A DNA stretch of 64,000 nucleotides, from NCBI RefSeq assembly GCF_010501075.1, contig NZ_QVMN01000006.1:1-64000 (forward strand), read 5' to 3'. The stretch is from Dysgonomonas sp. 25 (GTDB lineage: Bacteria; Bacteroidota; Bacteroidia; Bacteroidales; Dysgonomonadaceae). The position numbers and the translations under genes were made by a program. The notes beneath the pieces are model-generated. The model made no database searches. It had not been told where the DNA came from and saw only the letters and a list, made by a program, of their open reading frames with translations. The first letter of the stretch is position 1. Each line of letters starts with the position of its first letter. Positions 25 through 51,453 of the stretch are shown in pieces.

Positions 25-280
25 GTAATATAACGTTTTTCGGGCGATTATCCAAATTTTCAACTAATAAAATTCACCTCCCCCCGTCCCCCTCCAGCAG
101 AGGGGGAGTAAAAATATACACTCTTTTCCTATCTCCTCCCCTTGTGGGGGAGGTAGGGAGGGGGTGCCCGAATGCTTGTGTTAATGTCAGGGGTATTTCC
201 GGCTGCGACAGCCGTACCTACCTCCCCCCAGCCCCCTCCACAAGAGGGGGAGCGAGGGGCTATCTTTCAGTTATCAGCAG

Positions 281-308
281 GCCCCCTCAATCCCCCGAAG
301 GGGGAAGT
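281..308 (+). repeat. C-run/G-run palindromic repeat, copy closest to those in valS
   Basis: The core is GCCCCCTCAATCCCCCGAAG followed by a G run. It has the same build as the copies at 20030-20055, 21086-21121 and, inverted, 20433-20460: a C run, a short A/T-containing spacer, then CCCCC, two to three bases and GGGGG. This identifies one dispersed family found both between genes and inside valS. Confidence 0.7.
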
Positions 309-4281: not shown

Positions 4282-7092
4282 ATGAGAAAATATATCTTTT
4301 TGCTGATTATGATTCTGTGCAGCTTGGCTTTGCAAGCTAATAAGCCTCATATTATCAATCTGTACAGGGAGTATTACCATGCAGATAATAAGAACTGGGC
4401 TATCGGGCAGGACGAGAAAGGAATGATATATTTTGGCAATGACAGGGGATTGTTGCAGTTCGACGGTATCGAATGGCGCCTGAGCGAGTTGCCTAACTCC
4501 TCCATCCTGCGATCGCTGGCGGTACAATCGCACAATACTATTTTTACGGGAGGGTATGAGGAATTCGGACGATGGGACAGGGATATCTCGGGCGAATTGG
4601 TCTATACCTCATTGAGTAGCGACATCGACAAAACCCTTTTCGGGAACGATGATTTCTGGAAGATATGGATTGATTCGGCAGGTGTTTATTTTCAGTCGTT
4701 CAATTCCATTTATATATATGACTATGAGACGGTAAAGCGTATCCCTTTCGATAGTGGTTTCTTATTCCTGATGAAGGTGCGCGATGAGTATCTCGTGCAG
4801 AGAATGAGAGGTCCGCTATACAGGCTTTCGGGTACCGAGCTGGAAGAGATAGGAGGGAGTGATATTTTCAAGGATACCGATATCCGGGTTATTTTACCCT
4901 ACGAAGAAGATAAATATCTGATAGGCACGGCTACACAGGGATTGTATATTTACGACGGTGAGACTTTTACGGTTTGGAACAAGTCACTTTCGGCTGTTAT
5001 CAACCCTAAAGAATTGAATTGTGGTATCTATACTTCGTATGGGACATATATGCTCGGGACGATATTAGACGGGATTTACGAAGTAGATACCGAAGGAAAT
5101 ATACTCAACCATATATCGGCAGTCAATTCGTTGCAGAATAATACGATTTTGTCTTTGTTCGAGGATAACTTGCACAACATCTGGGTGGCAATGGATCGGG
5201 GAGTGGCGTATGTCCACTATATAGAGAATATGGATTGTTATACCGCCCCGCGCGGGAATACGCCCGCTATCTATGATGCTCTCATGTGGAACGAGAAGCT
5301 TTTTCTGGCCACCAATCAGGGGGTATTCTACTTGTACGAAAAAGAATTGGAGCAGCCCAATACATTGAATAATCTCCGCCTGATAGAAGGGACGCAAGGA
5401 CAGTCGTGGCAGTTGGAAATGATAGACGGCAAACTCTATTGCTGCCACAACAGAGGGTTGAAACAGATTCTCCCCAATCTGCAAATCAGAGACGAATATG
5501 CCATAAGGACGGGTGTGTATAACATTTCTAACTTAAACCTCCATAATAAAGAGCGAATTATACTATCCACATATAGTTCGGTGAGGATAGTCGATCCCAC
5601 TACGGGAGAAGTATCCACTCCGGCTAAACCCCGCGAGCCTATCATGACGGTGATAACGGATCATCTGGGCAATGTCTGGCTCGAACATTTCAACAAAGGG
5701 GTATACCGTTGCCGCCTGAATAGCGACCTGACGGATATAGAAAGTTATACCTATTACGGCGGCGATAGCAATGACGGCCTGCCTTATAAACTGAAGATCT
5801 TCAAAGTGGGAGGACGTATCGTCCTGCACGGAAACGATCAGTTCTTCACCTACGATGATATTGAGAACCGTATTATACCGAGCACCTTGCTGAATAACTG
5901 CTTCGAAAACATCAAAGGGATTAAGAATATTGTCCCTATATCGAACGATACATTCTGGGCATTGGGTAATACCTCTGTCTATAAGTTCAAATACGATGGC
6001 TATGAAGCGACAATCTTAGAAAACTATACGTTCGATATCAGCCTTCTGTTGGTAAACAATTACGAGAATGCCTCGCAACTGAATGAGTCGAACACCTTGA
6101 TTTGTCTCGACAATGGATTCCTTATCTACAAAGCTCTGGGAGTCAGCCATTACGAAAAGTCGAAGAAACTGAAGCGCCCTTACCTCGATGTGTTGCAGGC
6201 AACAAATATTGACGGCGATAAACAATGTAAAAATCTGGACGAGTTTGCGAAAATCGCATACCAGTATAATACGATAACATTTCACTTCTCGTCGCAGGAT
6301 ATCTTTTCGTCCAACGTCCTGTTCCAATATAAGTTGGATCAGGTAGATCACAATTGGTCGGAAGGAGAGAAGATAAACAAAATCTCTTATGCCCGTTTGC
6401 CTGCCGGAGAATATCGCTTCCTGTTGAGGACGGTGGACAAATTGGGTAATACCTCCGAGCCCGTCATTTATGAGTTCGAAGTCTTATCCCCGTGGTATCT
6501 CACCGGATGGGCTTATGCCTCGTATGTATTGCTCACGATGCTTATATTCTATATCGTATGGGCGCTCGTATTGCGCCGCTACCGGAATCTGCACCTGCAA
6601 AAGATCAGGGCACGCGAAACCAAGCGCTTGAAACGGTTGGCAGGTAAACTGCAGACCGAATTGGAATTGAAGAATGCCGAGCTCCTGACGCAAACATCTT
6701 TTATCATCCAGAAGAATGAATTGATAATGAAGATAAAAGATATTATCGACAATTTCCAGAAAGGCAAGAGTACAAGGAACTTAGAGCCGTTAACCCAAAA
6801 GATAGATCTGCTGCTGAACAATGTCGATACCGAAGGCGACTGGAAGACCTTCCTTATCAAGTTTGAAGAAAAGCATAAAGACTTTTTCAAGAAATTGAAG
6901 GCTATGTATCCTCAACTTACAAGCAGCGATCTTCGTTTATGTGCCTGCCTCAAGTTGAATTTAGAGTCGAAAGAGATAGCTTCCTTAATGAATTTATCAG
7001 TCCGTGCGGTCGAAAATAGCCGTTACAGACTACGCAAGAAGCTGTATTTGAAGCCTTCGCAGAACCTGAATGAATTTATTTTGGATCTCTAA
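4282..7092 (+). CDS. Membrane-spanning Reg_prop/Y_Y_Y regulator with LuxR-type HTH
   Basis: Probable sensor-activator of the polysaccharide locus that follows. The ATG at 4282 gives a clean signal peptide (MRKYIFLLIMILCSLALQAN), so it is preferred over 4243. The 936-residue protein has beta-propeller Reg_prop-like repeats (about residues 25-650), a Y_Y_Y immunoglobulin-like domain (about 655-735) and one membrane helix (about 742-765). A charged coiled coil (about 770-870) and a LuxR/GerE-like helix-turn-helix (about 875-936, with SKEIASLMNLSVRAVENSRY) follow. It has neither histidine-kinase nor receiver domains, so it differs from the hybrid two-component systems of many such loci. It resembles SusR in layout: periplasmic sensing joined directly to cytoplasmic DNA binding. 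The ligand is presumably an oligosaccharide released by the locus enzymes. Confidence 0.85.
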   Translation: MRKYIFLLIMILCSLALQANKPHIINLYREYYHADNKNWAIGQDEKGMIYFGNDRGLLQFDGIEWRLSELPNSSILRSLAVQSHNTIFTGGYEEFGRWDRDISGELVYTSLSSDIDKTLFGNDDFWKIWIDSAGVYFQSFNSIYIYDYETVKRIPFDSGFLFLMKVRDEYLVQRMRGPLYRLSGTELEEIGGSDIFKDTDIRVILPYEEDKYLIGTATQGLYIYDGETFTVWNKSLSAVINPKELNCGIYTSYGTYMLGTILDGIYEVDTEGNILNHISAVNSLQNNTILSLFEDNLHNIWVAMDRGVAYVHYIENMDCYTAPRGNTPAIYDALMWNEKLFLATNQGVFYLYEKELEQPNTLNNLRLIEGTQGQSWQLEMIDGKLYCCHNRGLKQILPNLQIRDEYAIRTGVYNISNLNLHNKERIILSTYSSVRIVDPTTGEVSTPAKPREPIMTVITDHLGNVWLEHFNKGVYRCRLNSDLTDIESYTYYGGDSNDGLPYKLKIFKVGGRIVLHGNDQFFTYDDIENRIIPSTLLNNCFENIKGIKNIVPISNDTFWALGNTSVYKFKYDGYEATILENYTFDISLLLVNNYENASQLNESNTLICLDNGFLIYKALGVSHYEKSKKLKRPYLDVLQATNIDGDKQCKNLDEFAKIAYQYNTITFHFSSQDIFSSNVLFQYKLDQVDHNWSEGEKINKISYARLPAGEYRFLLRTVDKLGNTSEPVIYEFEVLSPWYLTGWAYASYVLLTMLIFYIVWALVLRRYRNLHLQKIRARETKRLKRLAGKLQTELELKNAELLTQTSFIIQKNELIMKIKDIIDNFQKGKSTRNLEPLTQKIDLLLNNVDTEGDWKTFLIKFEEKHKDFFKKLKAMYPQLTSSDLRLCACLKLNLESKEIASLMNLSVRAVENSRYRLRKKLYLKPSQNLNEFILDL

Positions 7093-17511: not shown

Positions 17512-19272
17512 ATGAAAAATAGAATGAGAATACTACTAATATCTCTTTTATTGACTATTCCGATTGTTGGATTCAGTCAGCAAAAGACCTATTGCAACCC
17601 GATAAACGTGGATTACGGCTATTGCCCGATTCCCAACTTCACCACTTGGGGTAAGCATCGTACATCAGCCGACCCTGTAATAGTGAATTACAAAGGCGAT
17701 TACTACCTTTTTTCGACCAACCAGACAGGCTATTGGTGGAGTAGCGATATGTCCGACTGGCATTTCGTTTCCCGCTCATTCTTCACGGATGAGATAAAAG
17801 AAGCCATGCCTGACAATTGGGACGATTTATGCGCTCCTGCGGCTTGGGTGCAGGGCGATTCGCTGTGTGTTTTCGGTTCCACCTATTCGCGTATTTTCCC
17901 TATCTGGGTGAGTACAAACCCGAAAGGAAACGAATGGACAAAAGCTGTCGAACATTTCGACATTGGCGGATGGGATCCGGCATTCTTTGTCGATGATGAC
18001 GAAAGGCTCTATATGTACAACGGAAGCAGTAACGTATATCCAATGTATGGTATAGAGTTGGACAGAGCAACTTTTCAGCCGCAGGGCACACGCAAAGAAA
18101 TGCTGTTGCTGAATGATGACAAAATCGGCTGGCACCGCTTTGGCGAACATATGGATAATACCTTCCTCAAACCCTTTATGGAAGGGGCTTGGATGACGAA
18201 GCACAACGGCAAATATTACCTGCAATGGGGTGGCCCGGGGACGGAGTTCAGCCATTACGGAGACGGCGTAGCCGTGGGCAATAGTCCGCTGGGACATTTC
18301 GAGCATGTATCGTTACCTTTCAGCATGAAGGCGGGAGGCTTTATCCGCGGAGCGGGACATGGTGCTACATTTCAAGACAATTGGAGCAACTACTGGCACA
18401 CATCGACGATGGTAATCAACGTGAAGAATAACTTCGAGCGCCGCATCGGCATCTGGCCTGCCGGCTTCGACAAAGACGATGTGATGTATTGCAACACCGT
18501 TTTCGGCGATTATCCGCATTACCTGCCTGCCGGGAATGCCAATCACCTCGAAAGCCGTTTTGCAGGGTGGATGCTTCTCAATTATAACAAGCCTGTACAG
18601 GTGTCGTCTACCTTAGGCGCGTATTATGCTAACAACTTGGTGGATGAAGATATCAAAACCTATTGGAGCGCCAAAACCGCAAACAAAGGCGAATGGCTGA
18701 TAACCGATTTGGGCGATGTATCGACAGTGCATGCCGTACAGATTAACTATGCCGATCAAGATGCTGAGTTCAGAGGCAAACAGCAAGGGATTTACCATCA
18801 GTATGTCGTGTATTACTCGATGGACGGTAAAAAATGGAACAAACTGATAGACAAGAGTAAGAACAAAAAAGACGTTCCACACGATTATGTCGAGCTCGAC
18901 AAGCCTGTCAAAGCGCGTTACCTGAAGATGGAGAATATCCACATGCCGACAGGGAAGTTTGCTATCTCCGGATTCCGTGTTTTCGGTTTGGGTAGTGGCG
19001 AAAAGCCTTCTCCTGTAGAGAATTTCGTTGCCTTGAGGGGAAACGATACCGACCGTCGTAACGGATGGTTTAAATGGAAACCTGTGGAGAATGCCTATGC
19101 TTATAATATCTATATCGGCACGCACCCCGACAAACTGTACAATTGTGTGATGGTGCACGGTAAGAACGAATATTACTATCCGGGAATGGATAAGACATTG
19201 CCTTATTACTTCGCTATCGAAGCCATCAACGAAAACGGTACTTCGGAGTGGGTAAGGGCGAGCGTAGAATAG
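17512..19272 (+). CDS. GH43-type five-bladed propeller glycosidase with F5/8 type C and FN3-like domains
   Basis: 586 residues with a cleavable signal peptide (to about residue 23, GFSQQ). The catalytic propeller (about 25-345) has the clan GH-F pattern: a possible catalytic base Asp54 in SADPVI, pKa-modulating Asp155 in GGWDPAFF, and possible acid Glu224 in FMEGAWM. Next come a discoidin/F5-8 type C carbohydrate-binding domain (about 355-495, with DEDIKTYWSAK and GEWLITDLGDVSTVHAVQI) and a fibronectin type III-like end (about 500-586). Arabinose- or xylose-directed activities are usual for GH43, which does not match a pure beta-1,2-glucan locus, so it may be a separate unit. The 321-base gap upstream supports its own transcription. 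Confidence 0.78.
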   Translation: MKNRMRILLISLLLTIPIVGFSQQKTYCNPINVDYGYCPIPNFTTWGKHRTSADPVIVNYKGDYYLFSTNQTGYWWSSDMSDWHFVSRSFFTDEIKEAMPDNWDDLCAPAAWVQGDSLCVFGSTYSRIFPIWVSTNPKGNEWTKAVEHFDIGGWDPAFFVDDDERLYMYNGSSNVYPMYGIELDRATFQPQGTRKEMLLLNDDKIGWHRFGEHMDNTFLKPFMEGAWMTKHNGKYYLQWGGPGTEFSHYGDGVAVGNSPLGHFEHVSLPFSMKAGGFIRGAGHGATFQDNWSNYWHTSTMVINVKNNFERRIGIWPAGFDKDDVMYCNTVFGDYPHYLPAGNANHLESRFAGWMLLNYNKPVQVSSTLGAYYANNLVDEDIKTYWSAKTANKGEWLITDLGDVSTVHAVQINYADQDAEFRGKQQGIYHQYVVYYSMDGKKWNKLIDKSKNKKDVPHDYVELDKPVKARYLKMENIHMPTGKFAISGFRVFGLGSGEKPSPVENFVALRGNDTDRRNGWFKWKPVENAYAYNIYIGTHPDKLYNCVMVHGKNEYYYPGMDKTLPYYFAIEAINENGTSEWVRASVE

Positions 19273-19299
19273 GGATTTAACGAAATAGAAGATAGAGTT

Positions 19300-19323
19300 A
19301 CACGGGATCAAAAAACCCCGTGT
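19300..19323 (+). terminator. Intrinsic terminator after the GH43-type gene
   Basis: ACACGGG (19300-19306) and CCCGTGT (19317-19323) pair perfectly; TTCTTGTTT follows. Confidence 0.65.
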
Positions 19324-19417
19324 TTCTTGTTTATTGGCTATTAATAAGCTGATATTCTAAACTATTTTGTAATTTTGCCTACTCAAATTTTATTTAATTC
19401 ATAAACTACTTAAAAGC

Positions 19418-22400
19418 ATGGAATTAGCAAGTAAGTACAATCCGTCCGACATCGAGGACAAATGGTATCAGTATTGGCTGGAGCATAATATGTTCCACTC
19501 CGAACCCGACAATCGCGAGCCATATACTGTCGTCATCCCTCCGCCGAATGTTACGGGAGTGCTTCACATGGGACACATGCTTAACAATACCATACAGGAT
19601 ATTCTGGTGCGCCGTGCCCGTATGCTCGGCAAGAATGCCTGCTGGGTTCCCGGTACAGACCACGCCTCTATCGCAACCGAAGCGAAGGTAGTAGCTAAGT
19701 TGGCGGCGGAAGGTATCGGCAAGAATGATCTTAGCCGCGAGAAATTCCTCGAGCATGCTTGGGAATGGACACATCTACACGGTGGTATCATACTAAAGCA
19801 GCTTCGTAAGCTGGGAGCTTCGTGCGACTGGGATCGCACAGCTTTCACGATGGACGAAAAACGCTCGGAGAGTGTATATAAAGTATTTGTCGACCTTTAC
19901 AAAAAAGGGCTGATATATCGTGGTGTTCGCATGGTAAACTGGGATCCGAGCGCTAAAACGGCTATCTCGGATGAGGAAGTGATCCACAAAGAAGAGCATG
20001 GAAAGTTGTACTACCTCCGCTATAAGATAGCCCCCCTAACCCCCCAAGGGGGGGAATCAGAGCTTCCGAAGTATCAAACTGCAAAGAGAGAAAATTATGC
20101 CTTGCTGAAAGAGCATGCTAAAGATATGAGGAAATTCTCTACCGAAGCTGAAAGTGCCTTGTGGGAGATGCTGCGTAAGAAGCAATTAGGAGATAAGTTT
20201 AGAAAACAACATATTATTGAAAATTTCATTGTTGATTTTGTCTGTTTAGATAAAAAGCTTGTGATAGAGGTTGACGGTAAATATCATAACCAACCTGAAA
20301 TCGAAGAGGCTGATAAACAGAGGGATGAGATTCTACAAGATTTCGGCTATACGGTTTTGCGCTTTACTAATGAAGAAGTAATTGCAAACACCGAATCAGT
20401 TTTAGAAAAAATAAAAACCGAGCTGGACAATAGCTCCCCCTACGGGGGAGTTGAGGGGGCTTACTGTGTCGTAGCCACTACTCGTCCCGAAACGATATTC
20501 GGCGATGTTGCTGTATGTATCAACCCGAATGATCCGAAAACAGCCTGGCTGAAAGGCAAAAAGGTTATTGTGCCGATTGCCAATCGTGTTGTGCCTATTA
20601 TCGAGGACGATTACGTAGATATGGAGTTCGGTACAGGCTGCCTGAAAGTAACTCCTGCCCACGATGTGAACGACTACATGCTGGGTGAAAAATATAACCT
20701 CGAAGCAATCGACATCTTCAATGATGACGGTACACTGAACGAACATGGACTGATGTATCAGGGCATGGATCGTTTCGATGTGCGCAAGAAGATAGAAGGC
20801 GACCTCGAATCGGCAGGACTGATGGAGAAGGTAGAAGCCTACACCAATAAAGTCGGTTTCTCTGAAAGGACGCATGTTGCAATCGAACCGAAGTTGTCGA
20901 TGCAGTGGTTCCTCAAGATGCAGGGACTGGCTAAACCAGCATTGGAAAATGTAGAGAACGATACAATCAAATTCTATCCGGCACGCTATAAAAATACATA
21001 TCGCTACTGGATGGAAAATATCAAGGATTGGAATATCAGTCGCCAATTGTGGTGGGGACACCGTATCCCGGCGTATTATATAGACGCCCCCCTTAGTCCC
21101 CCCGAAGGGGGAAATTGGGGCTTCGTTGTTGCGGAAAATGAAGAAAAAGCACGAGAACTTGCTATTGCCAAACACCCCTCCTTGGGAGGGGCTGCGGGAG
21201 GCTTCAGTTTGCGTCAGGATGAGGATTGCCTCGATACGTGGTTCTCGTCGTGGTTGTGGCCTATCTCGGTATTCGATGGTATCAACCATCCCGATAACGA
21301 GGAGATAAACTATTACTATCCGACCAGCGATTTGGTGACCGGTCCCGATATTATATTCTTCTGGGTGGCACGTATGATAATGGCAGGTTATGAATATCGC
21401 AAAGAACCGTGTTTCCATAACGTTTACTTTACCGGAATCGTACGCGATAAGCAAGGACGCAAGATGTCGAAATCGTTGGGTAACTCACCTGATCCGATCG
21501 AGCTGATGGAGAAATACGGTGCCGATGCTGTACGTATGGGCTTGTTGCTCACCGCTCCGGCCGGAAACGATATTCCGTTCGATGAGGTGCTTTGCGAACA
21601 GGGACGTAACTTCAACAATAAAATATGGAATGCTTTCCGCCTAGTGAAAGGCTGGGAGGTGAGCGATGCTATCGAACAACCCGAATCGGCTAAGGCTGCT
21701 ATCGAGTGGTTCGAAAATATCTTAGCCAAAACGGCTGCCGAGATGGACGATTTGTTCAGCAAATACCGTTTGTCCGAAGCGTTGATGATGGTTTACAAGT
21801 TATTCTGGGACGAATTTTCGTCGTGGTATCTCGAGATGGTTAAACCCGCTTATCAGCAACCGATAGATGCCAAGACGTACGAAGCTACGTTAGGTTTCTT
21901 CGATTCGCTCCTGCGGTTGTTGCATCCGTTTATGCCGTTTATCACGGAGGAATTGTGGCAGGCACTTGCCGGGCGCAAAGCGGGCGAAAGTATCATGTTG
22001 GCACCGATGCCGGAGTTGAAGAAACCGAGTGAGGCACTACTCCAAGCCTTTGAACAGGTGAAAGAGATTATCTCCAATATCCGTACCATCCGCTTAGAGA
22101 AGAATATCCCGAACAAAGAGGAGCTTTCGCTCGAGGTGCTTGGCGGATACACTTGTACATACGATAGTGTAATCGAAAAGATGGCTAATCTGACTGAAAT
22201 AAAGCTTGTCGAAGAAAAAGATCCGATGGCGGCTTCTTTCCTCGTAGGGACGACAGAATATGCCGTTCCGTTGGGTAATAATATAGATGTTGAAGCCGAA
22301 CTGGAAAAATTGCAGGCCGAATTGACGTATCTCGAAGGATTCCTTGTTTCGGTAGAGAAAAAGCTCGGCAACGAACGCTTTGTAGCCAATGCCAAGCCCG

Positions 22401-22489
22401 AGATTGTAGAGAATGAACGCAAGAAAAAGGCAGATGCCGAAAGCAAAATTGCTACAATCAAAGAGACAATAGCTTCTTTGACAAAGTAA
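19418..22489 (+). CDS. valS: Valyl-tRNA synthetase with in-frame DUF559 insertion
   Basis: Charges tRNA-Val. The class I signature HMGH occurs in [10 protein letters not shown] and KMSKS in [10 protein letters not shown]. The editing domain carries [13 protein letters not shown] and [15 protein letters not shown], and the C-terminal coiled coil is intact. The protein is 1023 residues, whereas the family in this phylum is about 875-880. The excess is residues about 205-348, which interrupt the loop before the editing domain and encode a DUF559 (Vsr-like) endonuclease domain flanked by repeat-encoded APLTPQGG and [10 protein letters not shown] second site near residues 557-596 carries repeat-encoded PLSPPEGG and PSLGGAAGG. 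No stop or frameshift breaks the frame and all catalytic motifs are kept, so the enzyme is probably active with the insert on a surface loop. No splicing residues are seen. Confidence 0.93.
20030..20460 (+). mobile_element. DUF559 insertion element inside valS, bounded by inverted repeats
   Basis: The left end (20030-20055, GCCCCCCTAACCCCCCAAGG then a G run) and the right end (20433-20460, complement beginning GCCCCCTCAACTCCCCCGTA) are inverted copies of one repeat family. The ~375 bases between them encode a DUF559 domain: [46 protein letters not shown] with the Vsr-like catalytic Asp/Glu core, then [19 protein letters not shown]. Left repeat, domain and right repeat are all read through in the valS frame. 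No separate start codon for the domain is apparent. The boundaries are those of the repeats; the exact insertion junctions need an empty-site comparison. Confidence 0.75.
21086..21121 (+). repeat. C-run/G-run repeat inside valS, second pair, left copy
   Basis: GCCCCCCTTAGTCCCCCCGA then a G run and GAAATTGGGGC, the same family as 20030-20055, in frame and encoding [11 protein letters not shown]. Relatives carry a short LPEGG-like loop here, so part of the peptide may be ancestral. Confidence 0.6.
21175..21202 (-). repeat. C-run/G-run repeat inside valS, second pair, right copy (inverted)
   Basis: The complement reads GCCTCCCGCAGCCCCTCCCA then AGGAGGGG, an inverted relative of the copy at 21086-21121. 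It encodes [11 protein letters not shown] in the valS frame. The 53 bases between the two copies encode synthetase-like sequence. Confidence 0.55.
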
Positions 22490-22508
22490 GAAAACGCTGA
22501 AATAGGTT

Positions 22509-22553
22509 TTACCTCTCCTTTTGGACAATATATCTTTTCCGGAGGAGAGGTAA
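22509..22553 (+). terminator. Terminator of valS
   Basis: TTACCTCTCC (22509-22518) pairs perfectly with GGAGAGGTAA (22544-22553), followed by TTTATTTT. Confidence 0.7.
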
Positions 22554-22644
22554 TTTATTTTAACTCTCTCTGTTAATATATTATAGGTTCATCCAAACAC
22601 ACGATAAATAACTGACAAACACTGAATTTCTTAAGCTATAAAAT

Positions 22645-22705
22645 GCTTTCGTCTACAAATTGGCTTCTTTCATCTACTAAAAAGGGGCTTTCATCTAATA
22701 AAAAA
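22645..22705 (+). promoter_or_regulatory. Three direct repeats with exact 21-bp spacing upstream of the TonB receptor gene
   Basis: The element CTTTCRTCTA followed by an A-rich end starts at 22646, 22667 and 22688: period 21, two helical turns. A -7 box TAACTTTG lies at 22726-22733. A looser fourth copy, TTCGTCTAATAAAA, begins at 22761. The period and position just upstream of the promoter suit an activator that binds direct repeats, such as a LytTR-type response regulator. The regulator's identity is inference. Confidence 0.55.
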
Positions 22706-22725
22706 AGTTCGGGCTGTTTATAATA

Positions 22726-22733
22726 TAACTTTG
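22726..22733 (+). promoter_or_regulatory. Bacteroidota -7 promoter element
   Basis: TAACTTTG matches TAnnTTTG. There is no TTTG at the -33 spacing, consistent with an activator-dependent promoter. It would start transcription about 85 bases before the receptor gene. Confidence 0.5.
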
Positions 22734-22824
22734 TAACCAGTAAAATAAAACGATGTATTATTCGTCTAATAAAACTATAACATATATTTCGTCCTATTAC
22801 AACCGGATATAATAATTTTAACTT

Positions 22825-50758: not shown

Positions 50759-51453
50759 TGGAGCGAATAGTTGTAAATAACATTCCAATTGAAGTCGAAT
50801 ATAAAAAGATTAAAAATATTCACTTGTCTGTTTATCCTCCTAATGGAAGGGTTCATATTTCTGCACCGGAAACGATGAAACCTGATTCTGTGCGATTATA
50901 TGCCATATCAAAACTAAGTTGGATAAGTAAACAGAAAGAAAAAGTCCTTCAACAAGAAAGACAAACTCCTAGAGAATATGTTTCAGGTGAAAACCATTAC
51001 TTCAAAGGACAACGCTATCGCTTAAAAGTCATATATCACAAAGACGTTCCTAAAGTTGGATTAGGTGGAAAAAAATTCATCAACCTTTATGTGAGAGAAG
51101 ATTCAACGGTTGTTAAGCGAGCAGAAGTTCTAAAAGAATGGTATCGAAAAGAGCTAAGGGAAACTATATCGCCTTTGGTTGAGAAATGGACGCAAATACT
51201 ACAAGTATCTCCTAAACATTGGGAGATAAAACAAATGAAAACAAGATGGGGAAGTTGTAACACACGAACAAAAAGACTGCTTTTCAATCTTGAACTGGCA
51301 AAGAAACCAACTCATTGTATTGAATATATTGTCGTCCATGAACTTGCTCACCTAATTGAGCGACAACATAATGAACGATATATTTCAATTTTGAATACTC
51401 ACTTGCCTCAATGGGAAGTATATAGAGATGAATTAAATGAATTTATAGTATAA
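50758..51453 (+). CDS. YgjP-like zinc metallopeptidase (M48-type)
   Basis: 231 residues. The metal site is HELAHLIERQHNERY (HExxH with a downstream His), preceded by TRWGSCNTRTKRLLFNLELA, the WGS signature of YgjP/DUF45 proteins. Such genes often sit in type I restriction operons, beside hsdR; their job there is not settled, and proteolytic control of HsdR is one proposal. It overlaps hsdR by one base and is 11 bases from rdrA, so it bridges the restriction and RADAR modules. Confidence 0.85.
   Translation: MERIVVNNIPIEVEYKKIKNIHLSVYPPNGRVHISAPETMKPDSVRLYAISKLSWISKQKEKVLQQERQTPREYVSGENHYFKGQRYRLKVIYHKDVPKVGLGGKKFINLYVREDSTVVKRAEVLKEWYRKELRETISPLVEKWTQILQVSPKHWEIKQMKTRWGSCNTRTKRLLFNLELAKKPTHCIEYIVVHELAHLIERQHNERYISILNTHLPQWEVYRDELNEFIV

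Follow-up and report, generated by a model that had tools for sequence, protein, structure and literature searches.

An in-frame DUF559 nuclease domain in the valyl-tRNA synthetase of Dysgonomonas sp. 25: one copy of a candidate homing-like, palindrome-bounded element

Homing nucleases are thought to last in conserved genes because the introns and inteins that carry them remove themselves. The valS gene of Dysgonomonas sp. 25 raises the question of whether a nuclease can also persist in an essential gene as a permanent part of the finished protein. The gene lies in the window analyzed here, the first 64,000 nucleotides (nt) of contig NZ_QVMN01000006.1 (assembly GCF_010501075.1), and encodes a valyl-tRNA synthetase (ValRS) that carries a DUF559 nuclease domain between two palindromes. 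An earlier note, made from the letters of this DNA alone, proposed that the insert, counted at about 144 codons, was a mobile unit that stays in frame and lands in a surface loop, like a homing element that does not splice. From the comparisons described below, we lean towards reading the valS insert as one copy of a homing-like, palindrome-bounded nuclease element, kept in its host protein as a domain that is not spliced out.

The valS open reading frame was free of stop codons over all 1023 residues despite the insert, and Pfam placed DUF559 (PF04480) at residues 231-336, inside the tRNA-synt_1 domain (E 6.5e-35; 119.8 bits against a curated cut-off of 20.6), in agreement with the reported in-frame domain with an intact core. 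The stretch from WDP to the T-rich motif of the editing domain spanned 191 residues in the window valS versus 52 in the usual empty orthologue, so the insert adds about 139 codons; the extra codons were thus confirmed, with a slightly smaller count. The unit consisted of a palindrome, a linker, the nuclease, a second linker and an inverted palindrome, and was open throughout in the host frame (Table 1). The inverted palindromes reported on either side were recovered: their outer arms, AGCCCCCCTAAC and GTTGAGGGGGCT, read by eye, were inverted copies at 10 of 12 positions, an arrangement of the kind seen at transposon ends. The default repeat finder did not detect this pair, which indicates that the repeats bounding the insert are imperfect.

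The best solved ValRS match for the window protein, that of T. thermophilus (1gax), aligned in two pieces, query residues 1-204 with chain residues 1-204 and query residues 347-1017 with chain residues 207-857. The unit thus takes the place of a short loop that immediately precedes the T-rich motif of the editing domain, which we take to be the CP1 domain. The alignment puts the insert in a loop, as had been proposed, between T. thermophilus residues 204 and 207, and we infer that this loop is exposed at the surface. A full-length structure model of ValRS, with a mean pLDDT of 46.7 from a five-row alignment, was set aside, and the loop position was taken from the 1gax alignment.

No intein splicing domain was found in ValRS by Pfam and NCBIfam (E 1e-3), and the Rfam search of positions 19000-22800 found no group I or group II intron, only two sub-threshold, unrelated matches. 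The suggested likeness to a homing element without splicing held in this respect, as it did in the relationship of the nuclease to I-Bth0305I described below. A whalefall-1 RNA match at 21172-21226, which lay on a palindrome, was rejected (24.9 bits against a cut-off of 37) and is probably due to chance. The source genome gave seven matches to the whole ValRS, the best two being valS itself and one at 28% identity; the others scored below the latter, so no second intact valS was evident that might have made this copy dispensable. The genome contained a single DUF559 match, and the family of repeat-paired copies for which the earlier note had suggested a search was not found there.

Table 1. 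Coordinates of valS, its insert and the palindromes in the window
Feature	Position	Strand	Remarks
valS, valyl-tRNA synthetase, 1023 residues including the insert	19418..22489	+	ORF, Pfam, NCBIfam valine--tRNA ligase
Left palindrome	20029..20054	+	Outer arm AGCCCCCCTAAC and hairpin; translated in frame as APLTPQGG
Left linker	20055..20107	+	Carries YQTA; Y.T-like motifs recur among in-gene units
DUF559 nuclease domain	20108..20425	+	Invariant E245, D273, E284-x-D286-G287 and H290 (ValRS numbering)
Right palindrome	20432..20461	+	Hairpin and outer arm GTTGAGGGGGCT; translated in frame
TTRPET, T-rich motif of the ValRS editing domain	20477..20494	+	Directly 3' of the unit
Two more palindromes in valS	21089..21191	+	In frame, no nuclease
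Four C-run/G-run palindromes in a row, outside valS	88..304	not assigned	Includes 282-304

The whole-protein search matched 60 of 61 genomes, five of which carried the insert at full length. The valS locus was read in 30 genomes, 23 from the same genus (its 25 genomes less G001 and G009, which had no usable valS) and seven from other genera of the family. Within Dysgonomonas, five sites were filled (G000, G007, G015, G016 and G021), three held the palindrome only (G008, G013 and G024) and 15 held neither, so that the empty sites sought in relatives exist and the insertion is not shared by all of them. Among the seven genomes from other genera, this loop held another palindrome in G032 and none in the remaining six. 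In G008 the palindrome was intact, a single hairpin standing between both outer arms. The filled allele resembles this form with the nuclease placed between two copies of the hairpin.

A similar series was found in the leucyl-tRNA synthetase (LeuRS) gene, where seven of 30 loci were filled, one held a decayed nuclease that lacks the catalytic residues (G031), one held only a palindrome (G014), 20 were empty and one was unreadable. The source genome was empty at this site, and both valS and leuS were filled in G007 and G016 (Dysgonomonas sp. PF1-14). Filled, palindrome-only and empty states are known at both genes, and a decayed state at LeuRS, where in the editing domain of G031 (locus L280) FIAPF and DIES replaced FIVDF and EVDG and no palindrome was evident. 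The LeuRS unit lay directly before TTR(A/P)DT and the isoleucyl-tRNA synthetase (IleRS) unit of G025 directly before TTTPWT; judged by these motifs, the ValRS, LeuRS and G025 IleRS units occupy the equivalent place in three paralogous enzymes. Second sites were present in LeuRS (L188, L192, L196) and in IleRS (L101, L103, L154, L157). In the course of this comparison a divergent ValRS type, WDPKA(K/Q)TT(L/V)SDEEVIYKEEH, was noticed in L041, L046 and L057, from G018 (Dysgonomonas sp. 521), G020 (Prevotella sp. isolate Gx485_bin205) and G019, respectively, and G020 had a second valS match on another contig.

The insert might instead be an artefact of assembly or annotation, or reflect the ordinary variation in length of a surface loop, since the source genome is in draft form, with 58 contigs, and palindromes are easily misassembled. 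However, the insert occupied the same place in five genomes, DUF559 lay in long frames of single-contig genomes (e.g. G590) and of named isolates, and the frame is open and under purifying selection. The presence of the same insert in independent genomes refutes this explanation, to which we assign a negligible probability.

Several observations define the borders of the unit. GC-rich hairpins flanked both sides of 76 of 140 DUF559 units, whereas control placements within these loci had them in 5 of 669 cases; by host, the counts were 14/31 for LeuRS, 5/7 for ValRS, 4/5 for IleRS, 35/55 for other genes and 18/42 for short frames. The hairpin test was added because a test for exact shared words of at least 12 nt in inverted flanks (34/140 units versus 4/700 control placements and 1/140 swapped partners) is weak, the repeats being imperfect. 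In two hosts unrelated by Pfam, a type ISP gene (L170, genome G351) and an N6/N4 methylase gene (L173, G147), the units were homologous, with 77% identity over 410 nt and an additional 43-nt piece. Their end palindromes were identical at 38 of 40 positions on the left and 36 of 38 on the right, the two ends were inverted copies of each other, and the DNA homology started and stopped at the palindromes. Moreover, G147 contained related units in two genes, an HsdR gene (L168) and L173, with 75% identity over 538 nt. Within the genus, a CCCC..GGGG palindrome lay on both sides of all ten in-gene DUF559 loci scanned and on one side of a short-frame locus (L075). A first-codon test for an ATG upstream of the nuclease did not discriminate between in-gene (55/91) and free (40/44) units.

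The filled state required at least five changes on the host tree, constructed from ValRS without the insert, versus 4.8 for random labels, and the filled genomes represented five separate host lineages, a single clade being rejected (p-AU 4.6e-56); this test counted G032 as empty though another palindrome sits in its loop. G015 (filled) and G017 (empty) were mostly 90-99% identical per 150-nt window in and around valS; identity was near 80% in two windows and fell to about 50% at the end of the locus, starting at position 4351. The native loop was replaced from GTGG onward, about 14 native nucleotides being replaced at the filled site, and approximately 25 nt to the right of the unit also differed at several positions. 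Together, the borders and the site states give good support to a discrete unit that has been repeatedly gained or lost. A separate observation on the G015 valS (L036) was a patch of about 120 nt, approximately 130-255 nt upstream of the insert, that was strongly unlike G017 and included amino acid changes.

The same domain was widespread. PF04480 matched 12 of 25 genomes in the genus (E 1e-3), 19 of 101 in the family (1e-12), 129 of 393 in the order and 162 of 395 in the phylum (both 1e-15). By our own count of the best 150 rows, at least 33 DUF559 matches in the order survey lay in open frames longer than 300 residues. The control family 23S_rRNA_IVP, in 198 genomes of the order, had no match in a frame of that length among the matches listed, the longest frame being 282 residues, while GIY-YIG, likewise in 198 genomes, had at least eight, four of which were examined further. 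The 282-residue frame of locus L419 (G211) consisted of a 23S_rRNA_IVP domain preceded by translated tandem repeats.

Short frames accounted for 44 of 142 distinct DUF559 sequences; the other 98 were in LeuRS (31), ValRS (eight), IleRS (five) and further long frames (54). Sixty regions had been chosen around long-frame matches and 60 short-frame loci were later taken in list order; because the long-frame loci were chosen on purpose, the proportions of in-gene and free copies do not measure prevalence. A copy was called in-gene when it lay in an open stop-to-stop frame, and the set includes one frame that ends at a contig edge (L083) and one that looks like chance (L182). Among 19 representatives, Pfam identified as hosts methionine synthase (MetH), RecG, coproporphyrinogen oxidase (HemF), HsdR, HsdM, type ISP and Eco57I-type enzymes, N6/N4 methylases, a UvrD-type helicase, methylmalonyl-CoA mutase, a HisF-type protein, RNase H, a GATase_5 glutamine amidotransferase, a DegT aminotransferase, an M23 peptidase, an epimerase/polysaccharide protein and IleRS. 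A label of 'DnaG' for L108 and L173 was rejected, both being DNA methylases by Pfam. In 12 of the 98 in-gene cases the DUF559 domain was terminal in the frame, eight times N-terminal, including all four HemF, and four times C-terminal, and these 12 are therefore fusions and not insertions. In named genomes, the best 80 loci gave 79 open frames: LeuRS 15, IleRS 12, RecG nine, MetH six, ValRS five, DegT one (weak, 27% identity), FdtA one, ten other long frames and 20 short frames; seven of the named loci were identical to loci already included above. These assignments indicate that palindrome-bounded DUF559 domains lie in frame in many unrelated genes across Bacteroidota.

The nuclease itself is conserved. 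In 50 aligned in-gene domains out of 98, one row in two being displayed, the residues T, E, W, I, D, F, E, D, G, H and D and a distal I were invariant; the domains had been found by profile, a search that favors intact copies. The pN/pS of the nuclease was 0.15 in the ValRS and 0.21 in the LeuRS of the genus versus 0.10-0.12 for the host parts, with synonymous sites near saturation, and these values point to purifying selection on the DUF559 domain. A profile search of solved structures ranked 3hrl, a DUF559-like protein without known function, first (E 1.9e-30) and 3r3p, a mobile intron protein, second (E 2.5e-8). Foldseek gave the same order for a model of the unit (mean pLDDT 85), 3hrl at E 1.1e-6 followed by I-Bth0305I (PDB 3r3p), the nearest structure of known function, at E 6.7e-5; weaker fold matches were Toxoplasma and Tetrahymena mitoribosomal proteins (from 1.1e-2), AbaSI/PvuRts1I and Vsr (1vsr, E 0.11, probability 0.97). 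The best PADLOC match, a weak one, was a homing endonuclease model (8e-6), and PHROGs matched an HNH endonuclease family as well as unknown ones, at 7.9e-8 for the best match. The nuclease thus shows the catalytic fold and residues of the EDxHD homing endonucleases (invariant E, D, ExDG and H), an assignment that rests on fold, profile and invariant residues and not on a residue-by-residue match to the EDxHD motif. A Caulobacter DUF559 protein has been described as Vsr-like (PMC12907096).

The homing-like reading of the valS insert entails a cycle of several steps. The nuclease would be produced as a domain of the host protein, on a surface loop with Gly/Pro-rich linkers, and would cut an empty or palindrome-only allele, or the DNA close to it. 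The break would be repaired from the filled copy, the palindromic ends supplying homology and in-frame joints. Loss would leave the palindrome alone, or exchange with an empty allele would restore the native loop, and the element would persist through tolerance by the host protein in place of splicing. The nuclease would be what drives the spread of the unit. Of the three frames tested, two were open in the idealized Dysgonomonas palindrome, as were four of six in each LeuRS-type end; since the ends are open in most frames, an in-frame landing would be likelier. A broader proposal, which we advance tentatively and with less confidence than the reading of valS, is that there are selfish elements with neither splicing nor a promoter of their own, in which palindrome-bounded DUF559/EDxHD nucleases, and GIY-YIG nucleases in parallel, are permanent domains of essential proteins, spread by cutting empty or palindrome-only alleles and stay in frame by means of stop-poor ends.

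Alternatively, the palindrome may be the mobile part, REP-like or Rickettsia-like, and DUF559 a passenger that is moved by recombination between palindromes and is not the driver. The palindrome-only alleles in the valS loop of G008, G013 and G024 and in the G014 LeuRS fit this explanation, as do the other palindrome family in G032 and the palindromes without a nuclease elsewhere in valS and in the source genome. A 22-nt palindrome pattern, with up to two mismatches, had 72 matches in the source genome versus one for the reversed pattern, although some of these places match in two registers; the palindrome type is thus abundant there and not a chance occurrence. The earlier note had also reported a similar palindrome between genes at 281-308, and one was indeed present at 282-304. 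GIY-YIG, with another palindrome family, could be an alternative cargo. A passenger, however, would not readily account for the catalytic residues that were invariant in the aligned in-gene units, the low pN/pS, the one long-lived in-gene DUF559 lineage described below, or the absence of the common small-ORF family 23S_rRNA_IVP from long frames among the matches listed. We consider it unlikely that the nuclease is only a passenger, though this is the foremost of the competing explanations.

Type I restriction R subunits contained in-frame GIY-YIG domains in three genomes, G268 and G168 by Pfam and G290 by sequence likeness. In G268 the domain was between inverted GGTTCGACAGGCTCACCCACC and GGTTGGTGAGCTTGCCGAACC, 18 of 21 positions being alike as read by eye, and the flanks in G290 were similar. 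Inverted repeats of another family surrounded L404 and L417, which with L416 constitute the GIY-YIG loci of three genomes; the fourth long GIY-YIG frame (L409) was an N-terminal fusion, and one HsdR (L178) had both GIY-YIG and DUF559 domains in frame. The same lifestyle may therefore have arisen in parallel with another homing-type nuclease and another palindrome family.

The history of the nuclease was followed in a DUF559 tree of 200 rows, 98 in-gene and 102 short-frame (60 of these from the list-order sample). One clade (SH-aLRT 99) consisted of 70 rows, three of them short-frame; the other 67, under 13 host labels, were in-gene. The in-gene or free label needed 15 changes over the tree. 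The tree suggests that in the main in-gene lineage the unit persists for long in one gene, now and then moves to another and seldom has a frame of its own. LeuRS nucleases were more diverged than their hosts (ratio 1.82, r 0.50, 36 pairs).

A number of observations weigh against the homing-like reading. The 31 in-gene rows outside the main clade, namely all HsdR and HemF, most methylases and nine single cases, fell among short-frame rows. Host genes clustered in a 141-row tree (36 changes versus 90 when shuffled), a pattern that also fits long residence; this tree was based on 111 columns of a short domain and many of its forks are open. The unit has the catalytic domain only, without the extra DNA-binding regions of known EDxHD enzymes. 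At valS, both the G015/G017 pair and the orthologue comparison lacked the target-site duplication that the earlier note had suggested looking for, and the unit may have been either gained by G015 or replaced in G017. At codon positions 1 and 2 the valS nuclease was at least as diverged as its host (ratio of means 1.60), and its divergence did not track that of the host (r -0.30, ten pairs from the five filled valS). The valS nuclease trees were weakly supported; the DNA tree joined G007 and G016 as the host tree does, whereas the protein tree did not. In MetH the nuclease tracked the host (ratio 1.10, r 0.81, 28 pairs), which fits old vertical inheritance. Finally, we infer cleavage and movement, and neither was observed. 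Since the valS nucleases are as diverged as their hosts or more, nothing pointed to recent spread among the species sampled, and the valS copies look old. The part of the earlier proposal that concerns a discrete in-frame unit, with empty and palindrome-only sites and other host genes, was sustained, while recent spread was not seen.

An old functional domain fusion, in which the nuclease serves the host enzyme or the cell, for example as a defence or stress-triggered nuclease linked to synthetases, methylases and helicases, would be consistent with the purifying selection, the recurrence at an equivalent CP1 position of ValRS, LeuRS and a single IleRS, the weak profile matches to the defence proteins DpdF and ProA, and the tracking of the host in MetH. 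It is difficult to reconcile with hosts as unrelated as HemF, HisF-type proteins, MetH, DegT and the M23 peptidase, with the patchy occurrence among close species that have empty orthologues, with a decayed nuclease kept in the G031 LeuRS, or with the palindrome borders, and we regard it as improbable, more so than a passenger nuclease.

The homing-like element resembles several known systems and differs from each. EDxHD enzymes are described as a homing endonuclease family with extra DNA-binding regions that occurs with introns (PMC3943268). The relationship to I-Bth0305I, a mobile-intron nuclease, lies in the fold and sequence of a catalytic domain of about 100 residues; rather than being encoded in an intron, an intein or a frame of its own, the valS nuclease is an unspliced, in-frame domain of the host protein between palindromes. 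Inteins and group I and II introns likewise occupy conserved host genes with patchy site states and a nuclease cargo, but no splicing domain or intron was found and the valS unit stays in the open frame. Free-standing DUF559 proteins such as PRK09767, to which the ValRS nuclease match was below the cut-off, share the domain and are often palindrome-flanked, but have a frame of their own, and 99 of the 102 short-frame rows fell outside the main in-gene lineage.

The palindromes invite two further comparisons. In the REP/RAYT architecture, inverted copies of a palindrome stand on either side of a gene, and the same palindrome also occurs dispersed on its own. The likeness is an enzyme gene between inverted copies of a dispersed palindrome; the enzyme here is DUF559 and not a Y1 transposase, and the units sit inside genes. 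No Y1_Tnp (RAYT-type) transposase was found in the source genome (E 1e-6), nine of 25 genomes of the genus matched, and three of 25 Y1-transposase loci in the genus held the CCCC..GGGG palindrome, one of them on both sides, so the Y1 transposase between or near palindromes that marks REP/RAYT was not the arrangement at valS. Rickettsia palindromic elements (RPEs) are inserted in frame into coding genes, and they are not known to carry a nuclease. Proteins of many families carry RPE domains (PMC2635572). The DUF559 units are alike in that palindromes become part of many proteins, and differ in carrying a nuclease and a whole palindrome at each end. An RPE-like palindrome alone in frame was seen in valS of G008, G013 and G024 and in leuS of G014; this holds for the palindrome and not for the nuclease unit, and the likeness is one of architecture.

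No description of a palindrome-bounded in-frame DUF559 unit, or of homing without splicing, was found among the listings and abstract openings of the mainly open-access literature searched, which does not prove novelty. If the homing-like reading is true, a nuclease kept in a finished aminoacyl-tRNA synthetase, methionine synthase or RecG would represent a third way to persist in essential genes and a possible origin of lineage-specific insertion domains in housekeeping enzymes. The spread of intragenic palindromes would become a testable question, and some annotated 'fusion' proteins of Bacteroidota may be invaded genes.

Other palindromes were noted in passing. At the site of the two nuclease-free palindromes within valS, G015 and G016 had YLPEGG and G007 and G021 a similar sequence. 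Palindromes like those at 88-304 occurred near the starts of contigs C4, C7, C55 and C57 of the source genome, and four palindromes at 177-nt spacing were present on contig C5 at 50892-51445.

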